64,000 nt of DNA from a virus. Location: positions 1 through 64,000 of IMG/VR virus record IMGVR_UViG_3300031673_000026; one strand, written 5' to 3'. The notes under the pieces are model-generated. The model ran no database searches. It worked only from the letters and a program-made list of their open reading frames with translations, and was not told the DNA's origin. The translations under genes were made by a program, and so were the position numbers. Below, piece by piece: positions 8,553 to 45,753 of the stretch (position 1 is the first letter of the stretch; each line of letters opens with the position of its first letter).

Positions 8553-8774
8553 TCAATTTGCCCAAATATATAAGTCATACGCTATTAACTGTTTATTAAT
8601 CAGTATGTCCGCCACTTCGTTTCCCAGGTTGAACATTTCCTCATCTCTTTCAATGCCCATTACTTCGGCGCACGTGCTGCTTAAGTCATCGGGATTAAGA
8701 TGGTCGGTATAGATGGAACCTTTCCAATTCTTTAACATCCACCTTTTAGCTTTTGCTACGTCTTTCTTTTTCAT
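8553..8774 (-). CDS. Small acidic protein, first gene after an internal promoter
   Basis: A 73-residue protein with 'AKRWMLKNW' shared with its downstream neighbour (8310-8528). The ATG at 8774 follows CGGAGGTTAAT, the leader of the promoter cassette at 8810-8838; an upstream in-frame TTG lies in that leader and is rejected. Function unknown. Confidence 0.6.
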   Translation of the reverse strand: MKKKDVAKAKRWMLKNWKGSIYTDHLNPDDLSSTCAEVMGIERDEEMFNLGNEVADILINKQLIAYDLYIWAN

Positions 8775-17387: not shown

Positions 17388-18730
17388 AACTGATTTGCAG
17401 CCCGCTGGGTGGGTATTCGCTTTTGTCACGCGATAAGTGGCATATATCGTACATGAACCCGGACGGCAGCCTTGACATGCCGCGCCTGGAAGAAATCCTG
17501 CGGAGGATAGCCAACGCTGGAGCGAACGCCATCAGGGAATTTCCCTGGTGGATACAGAATGAAGGGGAAATGGCGGTGCTTAGTGGCTTTACTGTAGACA
17601 AGTCTCTGCCTGCTCACAATGACATGATTATGAATCCTAACTATTTCAATAATCAACGTACGATAGCAGAGACAGCGAAGAAATATAACCTGGAATATAT
17701 CTTTTGTCTCTACAACAACAGCGAAACGGTCCCTAATAAGGACGGCGTTTTCTCCCCATGGTCACAATGGAACGGCGATAAGGAATTTTTCTATAAGAAT
17801 GAAGCCGGTCCCTACCGAAAGCAGTGGATAGAAAAAATACTAGAGACGTTCACCGGCATGGAAAACGTTTCTTATGATCTGGTCAATGAAGGGTCACACA
17901 AATACCCGGTAGAAATAGCGCAAATGTACCTGGGGATGCTAAGTTACGGGGTGCCGGTAAACAGGCTCAGTATCGGGATAAATTACGGTGAAAAGAAGAT
18001 AAATACCGATCTTATCGGCAGTTACAAAAAGTTTTCAGATAGGATCATATTCCTTCGCGGTGAGCAATTCTATATCGACAATGTTAAACGGCCCAGCGGG
18101 TCCTGGAGCCCGTTCCACGCCATCGATGATAAGAGATTGGCGGTATTCTGGACCGACGGGCTGGAGCCAGGCCAGGGAGTTCCAAAAGGCGGGCACCGGC
18201 CGACAAAATACAGCACCGACGGAACACGAATTGACGGCCTGCGCCCGAATCTCATGCAGACATACGATATGGCCAAGCGCGTCATGAGCACGAAATCAAG
18301 GGCGGTAGATAAGGGTATCGTTGCTATAGAGGTACTATTCGGAAAAGAAATGAATATTGTTGACCCCACGGCAGCCATGACAGGACTAACGCTGGCATAC
18401 CAGGAACATACCGGTGAATTTCCGGAAAATTACGGAAAATTCCCTGCCGAAGAAGTGCCGCCGGAGGATACAGATATCGATGAAGCGGTGGATTTGCTTT
18501 CGGGAATGATAGGGGAGCGGCTACAGATTATCGAGAAAACAGAGAAAGCCCTCAAGTTAATCGATAGATTCGTCGCGGAAGCTACAGCGTTAGAGCCCAC
18601 GGCGGCCTCACAATTAGGAAAGGCCGGCCGGGCCGTGTTCGCCGCAAAGGAAATGAGTACCGGCCCGATAGAACAAATAGTAAGCGCCCTGAAATTTATC
18701 GATGAATATAATGGACAGGTGGCAAAATGA
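17372..18730 (+). CDS. Clan-A-like glycoside hydrolase (cellulase-type TIM barrel)
   Basis: A 452-residue protein. Residues 1-340 look like a (beta/alpha)8 glycosidase: 'GANAIREFPWW' (strand 2 region), 'YDLVNEGSH' with Glu173 as likely acid/base, and 'FLRGEQFYI' further on. A canonical nucleophile motif is not obvious, so the enzyme may be atypical or binding-only. Residues 360-452 form a charged helical tail. No signal peptide. Likely acts on host surface polysaccharide, alone or as part of the virion. Confidence 0.6.
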   Translation: MPDKIKLICSPLGGYSLLSRDKWHISYMNPDGSLDMPRLEEILRRIANAGANAIREFPWWIQNEGEMAVLSGFTVDKSLPAHNDMIMNPNYFNNQRTIAETAKKYNLEYIFCLYNNSETVPNKDGVFSPWSQWNGDKEFFYKNEAGPYRKQWIEKILETFTGMENVSYDLVNEGSHKYPVEIAQMYLGMLSYGVPVNRLSIGINYGEKKINTDLIGSYKKFSDRIIFLRGEQFYIDNVKRPSGSWSPFHAIDDKRLAVFWTDGLEPGQGVPKGGHRPTKYSTDGTRIDGLRPNLMQTYDMAKRVMSTKSRAVDKGIVAIEVLFGKEMNIVDPTAAMTGLTLAYQEHTGEFPENYGKFPAEEVPPEDTDIDEAVDLLSGMIGERLQIIEKTEKALKLIDRFVAEATALEPTAASQLGKAGRAVFAAKEMSTGPIEQIVSALKFIDEYNGQVAK

Positions 18731-19641
18731 TACTTGGAATCAATCTACACAACCCACACCCTGACTCCTTGGGGGTTCTCAAGGAATTTGGTTTTAAGCA
18801 CGTCCGGTTGGATTTTTCATGGGATATCCTGGAGCCGGAAAGAGATGCTCATAACAATGAGCAAATGGACTACGCTGTCGAATGGGCGAAGGAAAACGAT
18901 ATCGATGTCCTGGGGATACTGGCATATACCCCCGGATGGGCTAATGGCGGGAATAGCAGGAATTATCCGCCCTTGGAAGTAGAAATCAGGTACTGGCAAC
19001 GATTTGTTCATCTAACGATACAGCGTTACCACTGGGTGAAATATTGGGAAATATGGAACGAGCCCAATCTCGATCAATTTTTTCATGGCGACGTTGCGGA
19101 GTACATGAGCAAGGTTTACGTGCCTGCGAAAGATGTCATCCGGGGGCACGCAAGCCGTCAAATAACGATGAATTATAGCGGGCCCTATGTATGCGGACCG
19201 GCGCTTGCACACCTGGAGGGGGCTAATTGGTCGCGGTGGATGAGGGATATCCTTGGTGGACATCCCTATTCCGATGATATTGCCGTTGTGACGCACCATA
19301 ATTACCCGGAAGACCCAAACGAATTTTGGCAACGCATGGAGAAGGTTCGTAAAATACAGGCCGGGGAAGGGCACGCTGATAAGCCGCTGTGGATAACCGA
19401 GTTCGGGCGGAAGGTAGGTAGGTATATAACGGAAGCCGAACAGGCAGAGTGGTTCCGGGCGCAACTTTCCGTATTTAACGGTCACGATGAAATTGATAGG
19501 GCATACATATACGTACAATACGATGACTCGGACCCGAAATATGCAGGTTTTGGCCTTACCGGCCCGCCCCCTGAGTTTCGGATGAAACCGGCCGGGGAAG
19601 TGGTGAAAGAATATTTACGAAAACAAGGAGAAATAACATGA
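18727..19641 (+). CDS. Glycoside hydrolase, GH39/GH5-like
   Basis: A 304-residue TIM-barrel glycosidase. 'EIWNEPN' gives the acid/base Glu112 and 'WITEFG' the nucleophile Glu225; the order and ~113-residue spacing fit clan-A retaining enzymes (GH39, GH5, GH53 relatives). 'GFKHVRLDFSWDILEPE' is the usual strand-2 region. It overlaps the previous gene by 4 bases, making a tandem glycosidase pair. Probably a polysaccharide depolymerase; no secretion signal, so virion attachment or release by lysis is needed. Confidence 0.78.
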   Translation: MILGINLHNPHPDSLGVLKEFGFKHVRLDFSWDILEPERDAHNNEQMDYAVEWAKENDIDVLGILAYTPGWANGGNSRNYPPLEVEIRYWQRFVHLTIQRYHWVKYWEIWNEPNLDQFFHGDVAEYMSKVYVPAKDVIRGHASRQITMNYSGPYVCGPALAHLEGANWSRWMRDILGGHPYSDDIAVVTHHNYPEDPNEFWQRMEKVRKIQAGEGHADKPLWITEFGRKVGRYITEAEQAEWFRAQLSVFNGHDEIDRAYIYVQYDDSDPKYAGFGLTGPPPEFRMKPAGEVVKEYLRKQGEIT

Positions 19642-31158: not shown

Positions 31159-31395
31159 ATGAAGTATATACTGACAGAAAAAGAGTTAAGGCGATATGAA
31201 AAAAGGATTGAGGAAAAGCAAAGCATAATTAACGGCCTATGTCAGCGCGTCTGCGATAGCGAGCCAATCAGCATAGAGGGCTGTTATAAAAACACCTGGG
31301 GATGTATCTATAGTAGCGACCATAAAAACGAATGGTACTGCGATGAATGCCCTGTCCTAAATATATGCGGGAAGATAAAACATTTTTCAAAATAA
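31159..31395 (+). CDS. Cys-rich protein, last gene before the structured RNA
   Basis: A 78-residue protein: N-terminal charged helix, then seven Cys ('CQRVC', 'GCYKNTWGC', 'CDECPVLNIC'), probably two metal sites. GGAGG lies five bases upstream of the ATG. Its stop lies three bases before the -35 box at 31399. Confidence 0.58.
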   Translation: MKYILTEKELRRYEKRIEEKQSIINGLCQRVCDSEPISIEGCYKNTWGCIYSSDHKNEWYCDECPVLNICGKIKHFSK

Positions 31396-31398
31396 AAG

Positions 31399-31427
31399 TT
31401 GAAAAAATAGCAAAAATGTATTATAAT
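31399..31427 (+). promoter_or_regulatory. Promoter of the structured RNA (leaderless class, L2)
   Basis: TTGAAA (31399-31404), 17-base spacer, consensus TATAAT (31422-31427), then six bases and an ATG at 31434. This is the best -10 in the window, with the same 35-base geometry as the other L promoters. Confidence 0.85.
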
Positions 31428-31444
31428 AGTAATATGAAAAACAA

Positions 31445-31533
31445 AATGATTGTCCAGGCAAATGCACTTATAAAATTCACGGATTCCCTCAGTTGCCGAT
31501 CTGGACAATCATTGCTGAGGGAGTCCCGTGAAT
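31445..31533 (+). promoter_or_regulatory. Mutually exclusive helices at the 5' end of the structured RNA
   Basis: Helix A pairs 31445-31457 with 31501-31513 (13 perfect pairs). Helix B pairs 31475-31492 with 31515-31533 (18 pairs, one bulged C and one G-U). The arms are interleaved A-B-A'-B', and only one base separates A' from B', too short to bridge a 13-pair helix. So the full helices should exclude each other, as in a switch. A 33-codon frame (31434-31535) spans exactly this segment. Confidence 0.75.
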
Positions 31534-32090
31534 AAGCAATCACTATCTTATGGCGTGGTTATTCCTTATGGAATAAGTTATCGGGTTCATGGCCGGGACG
31601 CAAGGTTATACCTTGCCCACGTCAACACCCAAAAAAAGAATAAGCAATCATACCATCTACAATCCAGAAATGGTCTCCCGGGAGGCGTAACATCAGACCT
31701 ATTGCTGTCCCGGCGGACACCGTTAGTGCGAAACGGCTGTAGCGGCTTATTATTCTTACGTCTTCCAATAGGGGGCGTAGGGTTGCACTCTCAGGCCCGT
31801 ACAAGTTACGATGTGGATGGTTACTTAAAGGAAGAGGCGGTAACGTCGAGACGACAGGTTGCAGGCTTGGCAACCTGCAACGGTCGGAGTAGGCACGTTT
31901 TAAGAAAGCCAATCGTAGTGCAGTTCTCTTTTCTCATTCCGGGGTGGAAGTCCCCGGGCTTCCTTTTAGTACTAATAATGGCGGAAGTTGTAGAATGCAT
32001 TTCCTTAGCCGTGCGCGTGCCAGGTGGCAGGCATGGTCAACGGCGACATCAAGTAAGGAGTGTTCCACGGCAGCAAGGGTGGTTCCCGGT

Positions 32091-32139
32091 GGCGATTCTT
32101 TCGCTGCTGACGGTTCAATTCCGTCGCAGCCGCCTTTTT
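32091..32139 (+). terminator. Terminator of the structured RNA with T-arm-like tip
   Basis: GGCG (32091), 8-base bulge, GCTGC, one-base bulge, GACGG, loop TTCAATT, CCGTC, GCAGC, CGCC, then five T. The tip GACGG-TTCAATT-CCGTC matches a tRNA T arm exactly (5-pair stem and TTCRANY loop). It can act as an intrinsic terminator and at the same time mimic a T loop. Confidence 0.8.
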
Positions 32140-32162
32140 ATGAAATTTAACGGTAAGATATC

Positions 32163-32459
32163 ATGACTAAAGAACTACTTAGAAAAGCACGGAAAGCACA
32201 CATGTGCTATCGGTGCGAGTTTCCGATTATAAAAGGCAGCAGGTATTACGAGACTGTCGGCAGGTTCCCGTTGTACGATAAGGAAGAAGAGCAAATCGGC
32301 ATTGAGTATTACCGTGAAAAGTGCTGTACTTTTTGTCACGACTTACCATCAGAAAAGCATGAGTGTGAGTGGATAACGGAAATCGATTATCAGGACTACG
32401 GGGCACCCACAGGTTTTGAGTATTGCACGGTATGTTATACGAAAAGGGAAATACAATAA
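32163..32459 (+). CDS. Zinc-ribbon protein
   Basis: A 98-residue protein with 'HMCYRCEFPIIKGSRYYE' , 'KCCTFCHD' and a final 'YCTVCYT'. The first block resembles PARP-type or 'treble' fingers of small phage proteins. It starts just after the terminator of the structured RNA, with a weak GGTAAG site. Confidence 0.58.
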   Translation: MTKELLRKARKAHMCYRCEFPIIKGSRYYETVGRFPLYDKEEEQIGIEYYREKCCTFCHDLPSEKHECEWITEIDYQDYGAPTGFEYCTVCYTKREIQ

Positions 32460-32474
32460 TACAGGAGTAAAATA

Positions 32475-33341
32475 ATGGCAAATAGATTCATCGATACAAG
32501 TACATTTGACTCGCCGTCAATCCGGCGATTACCAACAAAATTTAAATTATTTTGGTTTTACCTCATATCCACGTGCGATCATGCCGGGATATGGTCCGTT
32601 GATTATGAAATTGCCAGCATTCTTTGCGGTGGAAAAATAACAGAAAAAGACGCAAAGGAAAAAATGCATGGCAAATTCATTGAGATCGATAATGGGAAGC
32701 GTTGGTTTTTACCTGGATTTATTTTATTCCAGTACAAAACTTTCAGTTTAAAGCCCAGCATCGCCCCCCACTTATCAACAATAAATATCTTATCCCGTTA
32801 TGGCTTATGGGATGAGGATTCTCTAACTGTTAGGCAGGGGTTAGTTAACGGTTACCCTACCGTTACGGTAAGGGATAAGGATAAAGATAAAGATAAAGAT
32901 AAAGATAAAGATAAAGATAAGAACTATTCTCAAGAAGTAAAAGAAGTTGTAAGTTATTATTTTTCCACTCTGGATGCCGGGCAGCGGGAAAGATTCGAGA
33001 AAAATAGGGATAAATACCACGATGAAGCTGCAAAATTAATAAAAAATGGATTCACCGCCATTGCTATCAAGGCCGCCGTCCGGTTTGCCCGCGAGGATGT
33101 TTTCTGGAGGCCTAATTTCTTAAGCTTTTCTAAGCTAATGGCCAAAAATAAAGACGGGGTATTGTATATCGATGTTTTCCTGGAAAAGGCTAACTGTGAG
33201 ACCAAGACCCCAGGGACAAACAAAGTTACTCCAGGGCTAAGCCAAGCGGAAATCGACTATAATTACGGGCCGGAATACATCGAAGGGATGAACTACCAGC
33301 AATTCAAAATAATGAAGGAAAAGGAGGGGGGGGTAAAATAA
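32475..33341 (+). CDS. Replication initiator, O-like
   Basis: A 288-residue protein. The N-terminal ~110 residues ('RFIDTSTFDSPSIRRLPTKF' start, 'FWFYLISTCDHAGIW') form the winged-helix domain found in phage replication proteins of the lambda O / DnaD-like group. Residues 134-149 are eight Asp-Lys pairs from a DNA hexamer repeat. The C-terminal part is helical and probably contacts the helicase loader. The AAA+ loader follows five genes later. Confidence 0.72.
   Translation: MANRFIDTSTFDSPSIRRLPTKFKLFWFYLISTCDHAGIWSVDYEIASILCGGKITEKDAKEKMHGKFIEIDNGKRWFLPGFILFQYKTFSLKPSIAPHLSTINILSRYGLWDEDSLTVRQGLVNGYPTVTVRDKDKDKDKDKDKDKDKNYSQEVKEVVSYYFSTLDAGQRERFEKNRDKYHDEAAKLIKNGFTAIAIKAAVRFAREDVFWRPNFLSFSKLMAKNKDGVLYIDVFLEKANCETKTPGTNKVTPGLSQAEIDYNYGPEYIEGMNYQQFKIMKEKEGGVK
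32874..32921 (+). repeat. Eight tandem GATAAR hexamers inside the initiator gene
   Basis: Eight head-to-tail six-base units (GATAAG, six GATAAA, GATAAG) coding for Asp-Lys repeats. The tract is very AT-rich and, like lambda's iterons within O, lies inside the initiator gene, so it could be part of the replication origin. Copy number could change by slippage without breaking the frame. Confidence 0.9.
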
Positions 33342-44084: not shown

Positions 44085-44713
44085 TAATTACAAATAGAGT
44101 TAACGGCCTGGAGCTTGTATACTGGAAAAAGCTAACCTGGCTCCAGATTAAAGGGGCTGAAGGCGGGGATACGGGACTCAAGGAGCTATATGAAAGGGAA
44201 GCAAAGCAATTAATGAAGTCCCTTGGTAAGCACAGCTTCGTGGACCCGTTCAAGGTTTGGAAGGACCCGAAAGGCAAAATGTGGATACTTGACGGACACC
44301 ATAGGCAGGCCATATTGGAAGAGGTATTGAAGCAAAACGGAACCGTACCGGACCTATTGCCCGCGGTATTTATCGATTGCCGGGACAGAAAGGAAGCCGG
44401 GGAATTGGTGTTGACGTTCACGGCGATTTATGCGAAGCCCACCGGGCAGGGTGTTACCAGGCATATGGAGGAGTTCGGATTGGAGCTAAGTGATATCGAC
44501 GACCTGTCATTGCCGGGAATAAATTTTGATGATTTCAAGAGTGAGTTTTTTGATGAGACGGGATTGCTGGGGGGGGCACCATCAGGTATCGACCAAAACA
44601 AGTTAAAAACAGAATTTGAAATTGTGGTGGAATGCCGGGATGAAGAAGAACAAGAAAGTATTTACAATAAATTGAAAGGGGACGGATATACATGCCGAAT
44701 TTTAACATTGTAA
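44081..44713 (+). CDS. ParB/Srx-like protein
   Basis: A 210-residue protein with 'ILDGHHRQAILEE' (DGHHR at 71-75), the ParB-type CTP/ATP-binding or nuclease motif. The C-terminal 60 residues are acidic and Gln/Glu-rich. It is joined to the ABC-GNAT gene by a 22-base overlap. ParB/Srx domains next to ABC ATPases with acetyltransferase domains have been proposed as phage DNA-modification systems. Confidence 0.72.
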   Translation: MIITNRVNGLELVYWKKLTWLQIKGAEGGDTGLKELYEREAKQLMKSLGKHSFVDPFKVWKDPKGKMWILDGHHRQAILEEVLKQNGTVPDLLPAVFIDCRDRKEAGELVLTFTAIYAKPTGQGVTRHMEEFGLELSDIDDLSLPGINFDDFKSEFFDETGLLGGAPSGIDQNKLKTEFEIVVECRDEEEQESIYNKLKGDGYTCRILTL

Positions 44714-45753
44714 GGAGAATTAAGCCAAGTGATTCGTTCCGGGTGAATTCGATAAAAGGGCAGTTTGATCTCAGTCTGGATGAGGTGGAAGAAAGGTTTA
44801 CCGGAGATATTGACATAGACGGTGCGGATTGGAATATTGGCCTTATATATGGAGCGAGCGGAACCGGAAAAACCACAATAGCAACGGAATTGTTTGGGGA
44901 GGGGTGCGTGTCTGAGTACGAATACAAGGAAAAGTCCATAATAGATGATATGCCGAAAAGCGTATCAACCGAGGACATAAGCAAATCTTTCAATTCTGTG
45001 GGCTTTTCGACTGTGTGGAGTTGGCTGAAGCCATACAGCGTCCTCTCAACCGGGGAAAAAATGAGGGTTAATTTATCCCGCGCTCTACTCAGCGATGCCG
45101 CCCTGATTGTTTTCGATGAATTCACAAGCGTTGTGAATCGTGAGGTGGCGAAGGCCGGGAGTTACGCCATATCCAAAGCAATAAGGAAACAAAAAAAGAA
45201 ATTCATCGCCGTTTCCTGTCATGATGACATCGTTGAGTGGTTAGGGCCGGACTGGACCCTATGCACGGACAATATGGAATTTTCAAGGAGGTCGGTTCGG
45301 CGACCTGAAATCAAGCTCGACATCTACCCGTCCGCCTACCGAAGATGGGCAACTTATAGGAAGTATCATTATATGAGCGAAAAACTGAATAAAGCGGCAA
45401 GGTGCTATGTGGCGAAAATAGGTAAGGTGGCGGTGGCGTTTGCTGCGGTGCTGCATTTGCCACACTGGAAAAGCAAAAATTTAAAGCGGCTCCACCGGAT
45501 GGTGGTGTTGCCCGATTACCAGGGATTGGGGATCGGGCATAAGTTCAATACTTTTTTGGCGGGGCATTACAAAGGGCTTGGATTTAGGTATGTGTTCACG
45601 TCTTCGAGCAAAGCGATGTTGAATTCAATAATCGGGGACAGAAACTGGGTGGTCAGGTCTAAGAAAAGGGGAATGGCCGGTGCGGTAAGCACTGTGGTAA
45701 TAAATAAAACGGCATCGAAAAGGTACACCTTTTCTTATGAGTACGTTGGTTAG
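44692..45753 (+). CDS. ABC ATPase fused to a GNAT acetyltransferase
   Basis: A 353-residue fusion. Residues 1-200 are a soluble ABC ATPase: Walker A 'GASGTGKTT' (54-62), signature 'LSTGEKMR' (118-125), Walker B 'ALIVFDE' (137-143), switch His177 ('SCHDD'). Residues 205-353 are a GNAT domain with the acetyl-CoA loop 'QGLGIG' (277-282). No transmembrane part, so not a transporter. Coupled to ParB-like and TerS genes. Substrate unknown; DNA base modification or a packaging-linked protein acetylation are the two main ideas. Confidence 0.82.
   Translation: MPNFNIVRRIKPSDSFRVNSIKGQFDLSLDEVEERFTGDIDIDGADWNIGLIYGASGTGKTTIATELFGEGCVSEYEYKEKSIIDDMPKSVSTEDISKSFNSVGFSTVWSWLKPYSVLSTGEKMRVNLSRALLSDAALIVFDEFTSVVNREVAKAGSYAISKAIRKQKKKFIAVSCHDDIVEWLGPDWTLCTDNMEFSRRSVRRPEIKLDIYPSAYRRWATYRKYHYMSEKLNKAARCYVAKIGKVAVAFAAVLHLPHWKSKNLKRLHRMVVLPDYQGLGIGHKFNTFLAGHYKGLGFRYVFTSSSKAMLNSIIGDRNWVVRSKKRGMAGAVSTVVINKTASKRYTFSYEYVG

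Follow-up and report, generated by a model that had tools for sequence, protein, structure and literature searches.

A probably non-coding gap in the replication region of a phage

A gap at 31399-32141, flanked by the ORFs 31159-31395 and 32163-32459, raises the question of what a phage encodes between two neighbouring genes of its rightward replication region. The window analysed here comprises the first 64,000 bases (1-64000) of a virus record 68,006 bases long, and the genes around the gap include those for RecT, an exonuclease, a DnaD-like protein (32475) and a DnaC-like protein; no relatives were found for the protein of ORF 32163-32459. The TerL of this phage is about 27-30% identical to relatives in known phages and 29-39% identical to relatives in viral contigs by alignment, a search for TerL relatives by exact peptides found none, and the portal protein has relatives in Mu-like phages. 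Elsewhere in the window, 44692-45753 encodes an ABC-ATPase-like/GNAT protein (phrog_11143) whose relatives in Lactococcus, Streptococcus, Oenococcus and Pseudoalteromonas phages are 42-47% identical, and 18727-19641 encodes a glycosyl hydrolase-like protein with Pfam matches to Glyco_hydro_cc and Cellulase. An earlier note on this DNA had placed the interval between two genes, as the flanking ORFs confirm, and had read it as an autonomous structured RNA without a family. That reading is the best supported one, while the kinship with GOLLD and ROOL RNAs that was suggested along with it finds no support in Rfam or in the ROOL model RF03087.

A 212-codon open frame on the plus strand (31528-32166, GTG start) crosses the predicted RNA. 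The earlier note does not mention this frame, which might suggest a protein gene that by chance also folds as a stable RNA. Open frames of at least 212 codons appeared in 0.02% of shuffles, about 2 in 10,000, and the stop of this frame overlaps the ATG of the next gene as ATGA, both in favour of a protein. However, its codon score of -0.15 lay below those of all 64 control genes (33 short and 31 long; -0.035 to +0.49) and inside the range of shadow frames, and aspartate and glutamate together made up 3.8% of its translation against 13.5% in the proteins of the phage. The translation had no Pfam or PHROG match and no relative by tblastn, and its single-sequence AlphaFold model reached a pLDDT of 30.8, which alone says little for an orphan. 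Based on the codon score, the depletion of acidic residues, the absence of family or tblastn matches and the low pLDDT, we take the interval to be non-coding and the frame to be an unexplained oddity, and we consider a protein gene here improbable.

The interval folds more stably than shuffled sequence

On the plus strand, which carries all features of the interval described below, 710 nt of the interval folded with an MFE of -257 kcal/mol (z -4.33, 20 shuffles). With the 5′ domain removed, the remaining 597 nt of the RNA still gave a z of -3.42 on the plus strand versus -2.18 on the minus strand, and eight coding controls of 597 nt each fell between +0.5 and -1.5. When the 64-kb window was scanned with 25 shuffles per 200-nt strand-window, 31401-31600 had the strongest z of all 638 strand-windows (minus -4.7, plus -4.05). 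The stretch ranking second on both strands, with z of about -4.3 and -4.2, was 32601-32800 inside the DnaD-like gene. By domain, the z values were -5.31 (31436-31545), -3.54 (31545-31632), -1.7 (31633-31757), 0.0 (31758-31817), -3.49 (31818-31975) and -2.24 (31978-32141), somewhat favoured by the fact that the domain borders came from the predicted fold. The interval is structured beyond chance, but unevenly, in agreement with the many stable hairpins drawn in the earlier note. The fold programs ignore pseudoknots, and since no homologue was found, the helices and the RNA gene proposed below rest on single-sequence prediction.

Predicted promoter, transcript and 3′ terminus

The promoter that had been claimed for the interval, a sigma-70-type TTGAAA-17-TATAAT, is present at 31399-31427. 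In a consensus scan it matched at 11 of 12 positions and was the best among 10 sites in 5.5 kb, a region in which the count of promoter-like sites was not above that of shuffles. It predicts a start site at about 31434-31436, and the folding z, the codon score and the absence of an Rfam match together support a predicted structured non-coding transcript of about 705 nt at 31435-32139, which would be transcribed from this promoter together with the replication genes. A terminator had also been claimed, but no canonical intrinsic terminator was found at the 3′ end of the RNA. There is just a TTTTT (32135-32139) straight after CCGCC, non-canonical as a terminator, which we regard from the sequence as the probable 3′ end.

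The location among the RecT, exonuclease, DnaD-like and DnaC-like genes would also suit a replication-primer or origin RNA beside the replisome organiser. The DnaD-like gene holds a tandem GATAAA array of 7.8 copies (32874-32920), about 0.7 kb downstream of the RNA, which encodes an Asp-Lys repeat and is possibly an iteron-like feature. As this array encodes a repetitive linker, is at most a putative origin and begins well beyond the apparent end of the RNA, we hold a primer or origin RNA to be a rather remote explanation.

Two predicted interleaved helices of the 5′ domain, and a repeat

The predicted transcript begins with two long helices. Helix A joins 31445-31457 with 31501-31513 through 13 Watson-Crick pairs, a length reached in none of 1000 shuffles. 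Helix B joins 31475-31493 with 31514-31533 through 19 pairs and one bulge, within the domain of z -5.31. The helices interleave in the order A-B-A′-B′, which is not expected from a simple inverted duplication and implies either a pseudoknot topology or two mutually exclusive folds. More likely, helices A and B would alternate, or exchange between molecules, as both at full length in one molecule would need the threading of long helices.

The 5′ strand of helix A has further partners. An exact 13-base repeat, GAATAAGCAATCA, lies at 31530-31542 and 31638-31650, as the earlier note had claimed; such a repeat was seen in 0.25% of shuffles, and both copies are able to pair with this strand. In the full-length RNA the second copy forms helix P1 with it (31446-31453 with 31644-31651, probability 0.78). 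When growing transcripts were folded by partition function, helix A had a probability of 0.97 with the transcript ending at 31520, 0.37 at 31525 and 0.00 at 31530, while P1 formed with the first copy of the repeat at 0.82 by 31545 and with the second at 0.95 by 31660. These values describe equilibrium without pseudoknots rather than kinetics, and the choice of copy shifts with the end point. In these calculations the fold moves from helix A to helix B and on to P1, which suggests a possible role for the 13-base repeat.

Abutting modules form the predicted body of the RNA

Enclosed by P1 is a branched domain at 31551-31624 (z -3.54), which an 8-pair helix closes and which contains three hairpins, two of 7 pairs and one shorter. 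The P4 domain (31652-31821) has a 10-pair closing helix of probability 0.95 and a weakly supported interior (z -1.7 and 0.0). The P5 domain (31822-31971, z -3.49) has a 12-pair closing helix, visible as an inverted repeat, with one internal mismatch. Inside it are two hairpins, one of 8 pairs and one of 7 pairs whose loop is UGGAAGU. P1 (to 31651), P4 and P5 abut with no linkers. The palindrome CTCCCGGGAG at 31675-31684, formerly proposed as a signal for assembly like that of ROOL and GOLLD, whose homo-oligomeric cages are joined by intermolecular kissing loops, carries no weight, because 10-base palindromes are expected by chance and at least one was present in 54% of shuffles.

A possible tRNA-like fold at the 3′ end

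The 3′ domain, P6 (31980-32134, z -2.24), is predicted to be closed with a probability of 0.85 by GGCGG/CCGCC beside the T-run. An alternative, tRNA-like fold is predicted at 32068-32132. Its acceptor pairs CGGCAGC (32068) with GCAGCCG at 6 of 7 positions, its interior consists of GGG-UGGUU-CCC followed by an 8-pair hairpin, and its T arm, GACGG-UUCAAUU-CCGUC, is perfect with a 5-pair stem. After the T arm come GCAGCCG, CC and TTTTT, with no CCA. The T core GGTTCRANTCC has two occurrences in the 64-kb window, this one and that in the true tRNA-Met gene; the core alone arose in 0.26% of shuffles, and here it is accompanied by the 5-pair T stem and the acceptor. The 3′ strand of this fold has rival partners (CGGCAGC, GCCGUGCG and GGCGG), and the GGCGG/CCGCC helix that closes P6 (31980/32134) competes with the acceptor.

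The resemblance to tRNA and tmRNA lies in the T arm with a consensus T loop and in the acceptor-like helix. Unlike those RNAs, the element has no CCA and no normal anticodon arm, ARAGORN called no tRNA or tmRNA in the interval, and the best Rfam match of the 3′ domain, to tRNA-Sec, scored 21.5 of 47 bits (E 0.029 over 176 bases), far under the threshold. We rejected the idea of a tRNA split by a group I intron, as Rfam matched no intron and no clear 5′ half was seen.

A different account of the locus is that there is no separate RNA and that the replication genes from 32163, among them the DnaD-like gene, are preceded by a long regulatory 5′ leader, in which 5′ refolding and 3′ structure would control read-through or translation. 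The promoter and RNA directly upstream of these genes, the lack of a strong terminator at the RNA end and the interleaved alternative helices of the 5′ region are all consistent with it. However, a leader of about 700 nt would be a long one, the T-run follows the tRNA-like end, and neither riboswitch nor T-box models of Rfam matched at E up to 10. A leader, together with this manner of control, is in our estimate unlikely, though more credible than a protein gene or a primer RNA. Resemblance to a T-box riboswitch is limited to AAGGGUGGUUCC in the phage RNA, which resembles the T-box sequence AGGGUGGNACC and serves as a lead only; no aminoacyl-tRNA-related gene was recognised by Pfam or PHROG directly downstream of the RNA.

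Comparison with known ornate RNAs and the search for relatives

ROOL RNA (RF03087) is phage- or prophage-encoded, several hundred nt long, with predicted pseudoknots and an unknown function, and GOLLD RNA also occurs in a phage setting, with a linker that can carry tRNAs (PMC12286853). The phage RNA shares with ROOL its setting, a length of several hundred nt and predicted pseudoknots, and with GOLLD its setting and similar size. Nevertheless, the region matched no family in Rfam at the gathering threshold or at E up to 10, GOLLD included, which bears out the earlier statement that it belongs to no recognised family. The ROOL covariance model (574 positions) likewise had no match on the record at E up to 10, although the control genomes also gave none. 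No tRNA island lies near the interval, the one tRNA gene in the 64-kb window (tRNA-Met, ARAGORN) being about 18 kb away; such islands are common for ROOL and GOLLD but not obligatory. Further differences are the tRNA-like 3′ end, which sets the phage RNA apart from ROOL, and the degenerate, 3′-terminal nature of this element, unrecognisable as a tRNA, which sets it apart from GOLLD. The likeness to GOLLD and ROOL put forward previously thus comes down to size and phage setting, the palindrome being at chance level, and it is very improbable that the RNA is a diverged member of GOLLD, ROOL or another known ornate family.

Searches for relatives of the RNA in phages, plasmids and viral contigs and in some 1,050 sampled genomes, collections from which very near records may be absent, yielded none. 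Against phages and plasmids, blastn returned one chance match of 33 bases that is common to mycobacteriophages, and the RNA was absent by blastn from 48 records with a related TerL (29-39%; best E 0.002 over 23 bases). In viral contigs, a search for ATAAGCAAT as a repeated DNA pattern yielded loci that on inspection contained no relative, and one for GCAAGGGTGGTTCCCGG yielded a single match, by chance, within what appears to be a coding region. R1, a covariance model built on the single sequence of the 3′ domain, was run on the loci and on 1,042 sampled genomes and gave nothing convincing; with E of 0.001 and 0.004 per genome, its two matches are what chance would give across so many genomes. 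A phage tRNA-like RNA family built on GGGTGGNNCC and the T arm pattern in viral contigs was dropped, because the motif stood in differing registers across the matches (acceptor, hairpin, ordinary tRNA arms); a stricter version of the pattern gave 5 viral and 13 genomic matches, near a rough chance estimate.

Short tRNA-like structures, composed of an acceptor helix, a short hairpin or loop and a T arm, were observed in viral contigs and one Chlorobiaceae contig, and are not called tRNAs by Rfam and/or ARAGORN. They are located at L327 (minus strand, near 2172-2201), L296 (12788-12836), L339 (minus strand, 675-717) and L213 (minus strand, 8661-8696), and L327 and L296 seem to hold several of them in one stretch.

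A model for a stand-alone phage RNA

The promoter sequence, the non-coding codon statistics, the modular folding of the plus strand, the interleaved 5′ helices and the tRNA-like 3′ end form the computed basis on which we would put at about even chances that the interval is the gene of a structured, non-coding phage RNA, autonomous and about 705 nt long, with the predicted anatomy. What is new here is the predicted pair of interleaved 5′ helices and the candidate tRNA-like T arm and acceptor at the 3′ end.

We infer the expression, refolding, end formation and function of such an RNA as follows. Transcription would start at the promoter at 31399-31427, alongside the replication genes, and the 5′ end would fold first as helix A. 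Once 31514-31533 has been transcribed, helix A would refold into helix B, and the freed A strand would pair with one copy of the 13-base repeat to close P1. Together, the modules P1, P4 and P5, which abut, would make up an extended body. At the 3′ end, the tRNA-like fold against the T-run may mark and protect the terminus, possibly via host tRNA-handling factors such as RNase P, and the mature RNA would then work on its own as a structural RNA, as is thought for ornate RNAs. The 5′ refolding and 3′ end-protection steps are put forward tentatively, as a speculative part of the model.

There is perhaps one chance among several that the phage RNA belongs to a class of its own among the large ornate phage RNAs, separate from both GOLLD and ROOL, with abutting modules, a switching 5′ domain and a tRNA-mimicking 3′ end; taken jointly with this, and at the same modest likelihood, the 5′ domain of that class would switch its interleaved helices or swap them between molecules for assembly. 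To our knowledge, few phage RNAs longer than 500 nt are known, and the best studied are RNA-only assemblies whose purpose is unknown. If the reading is true, a further large RNA unrelated to these would point to structural RNAs of this size as a wider strategy of phages. Its tRNA-like end and its refolding 5′ domain, which can be tested, would then make it a new system for learning what such RNAs do.
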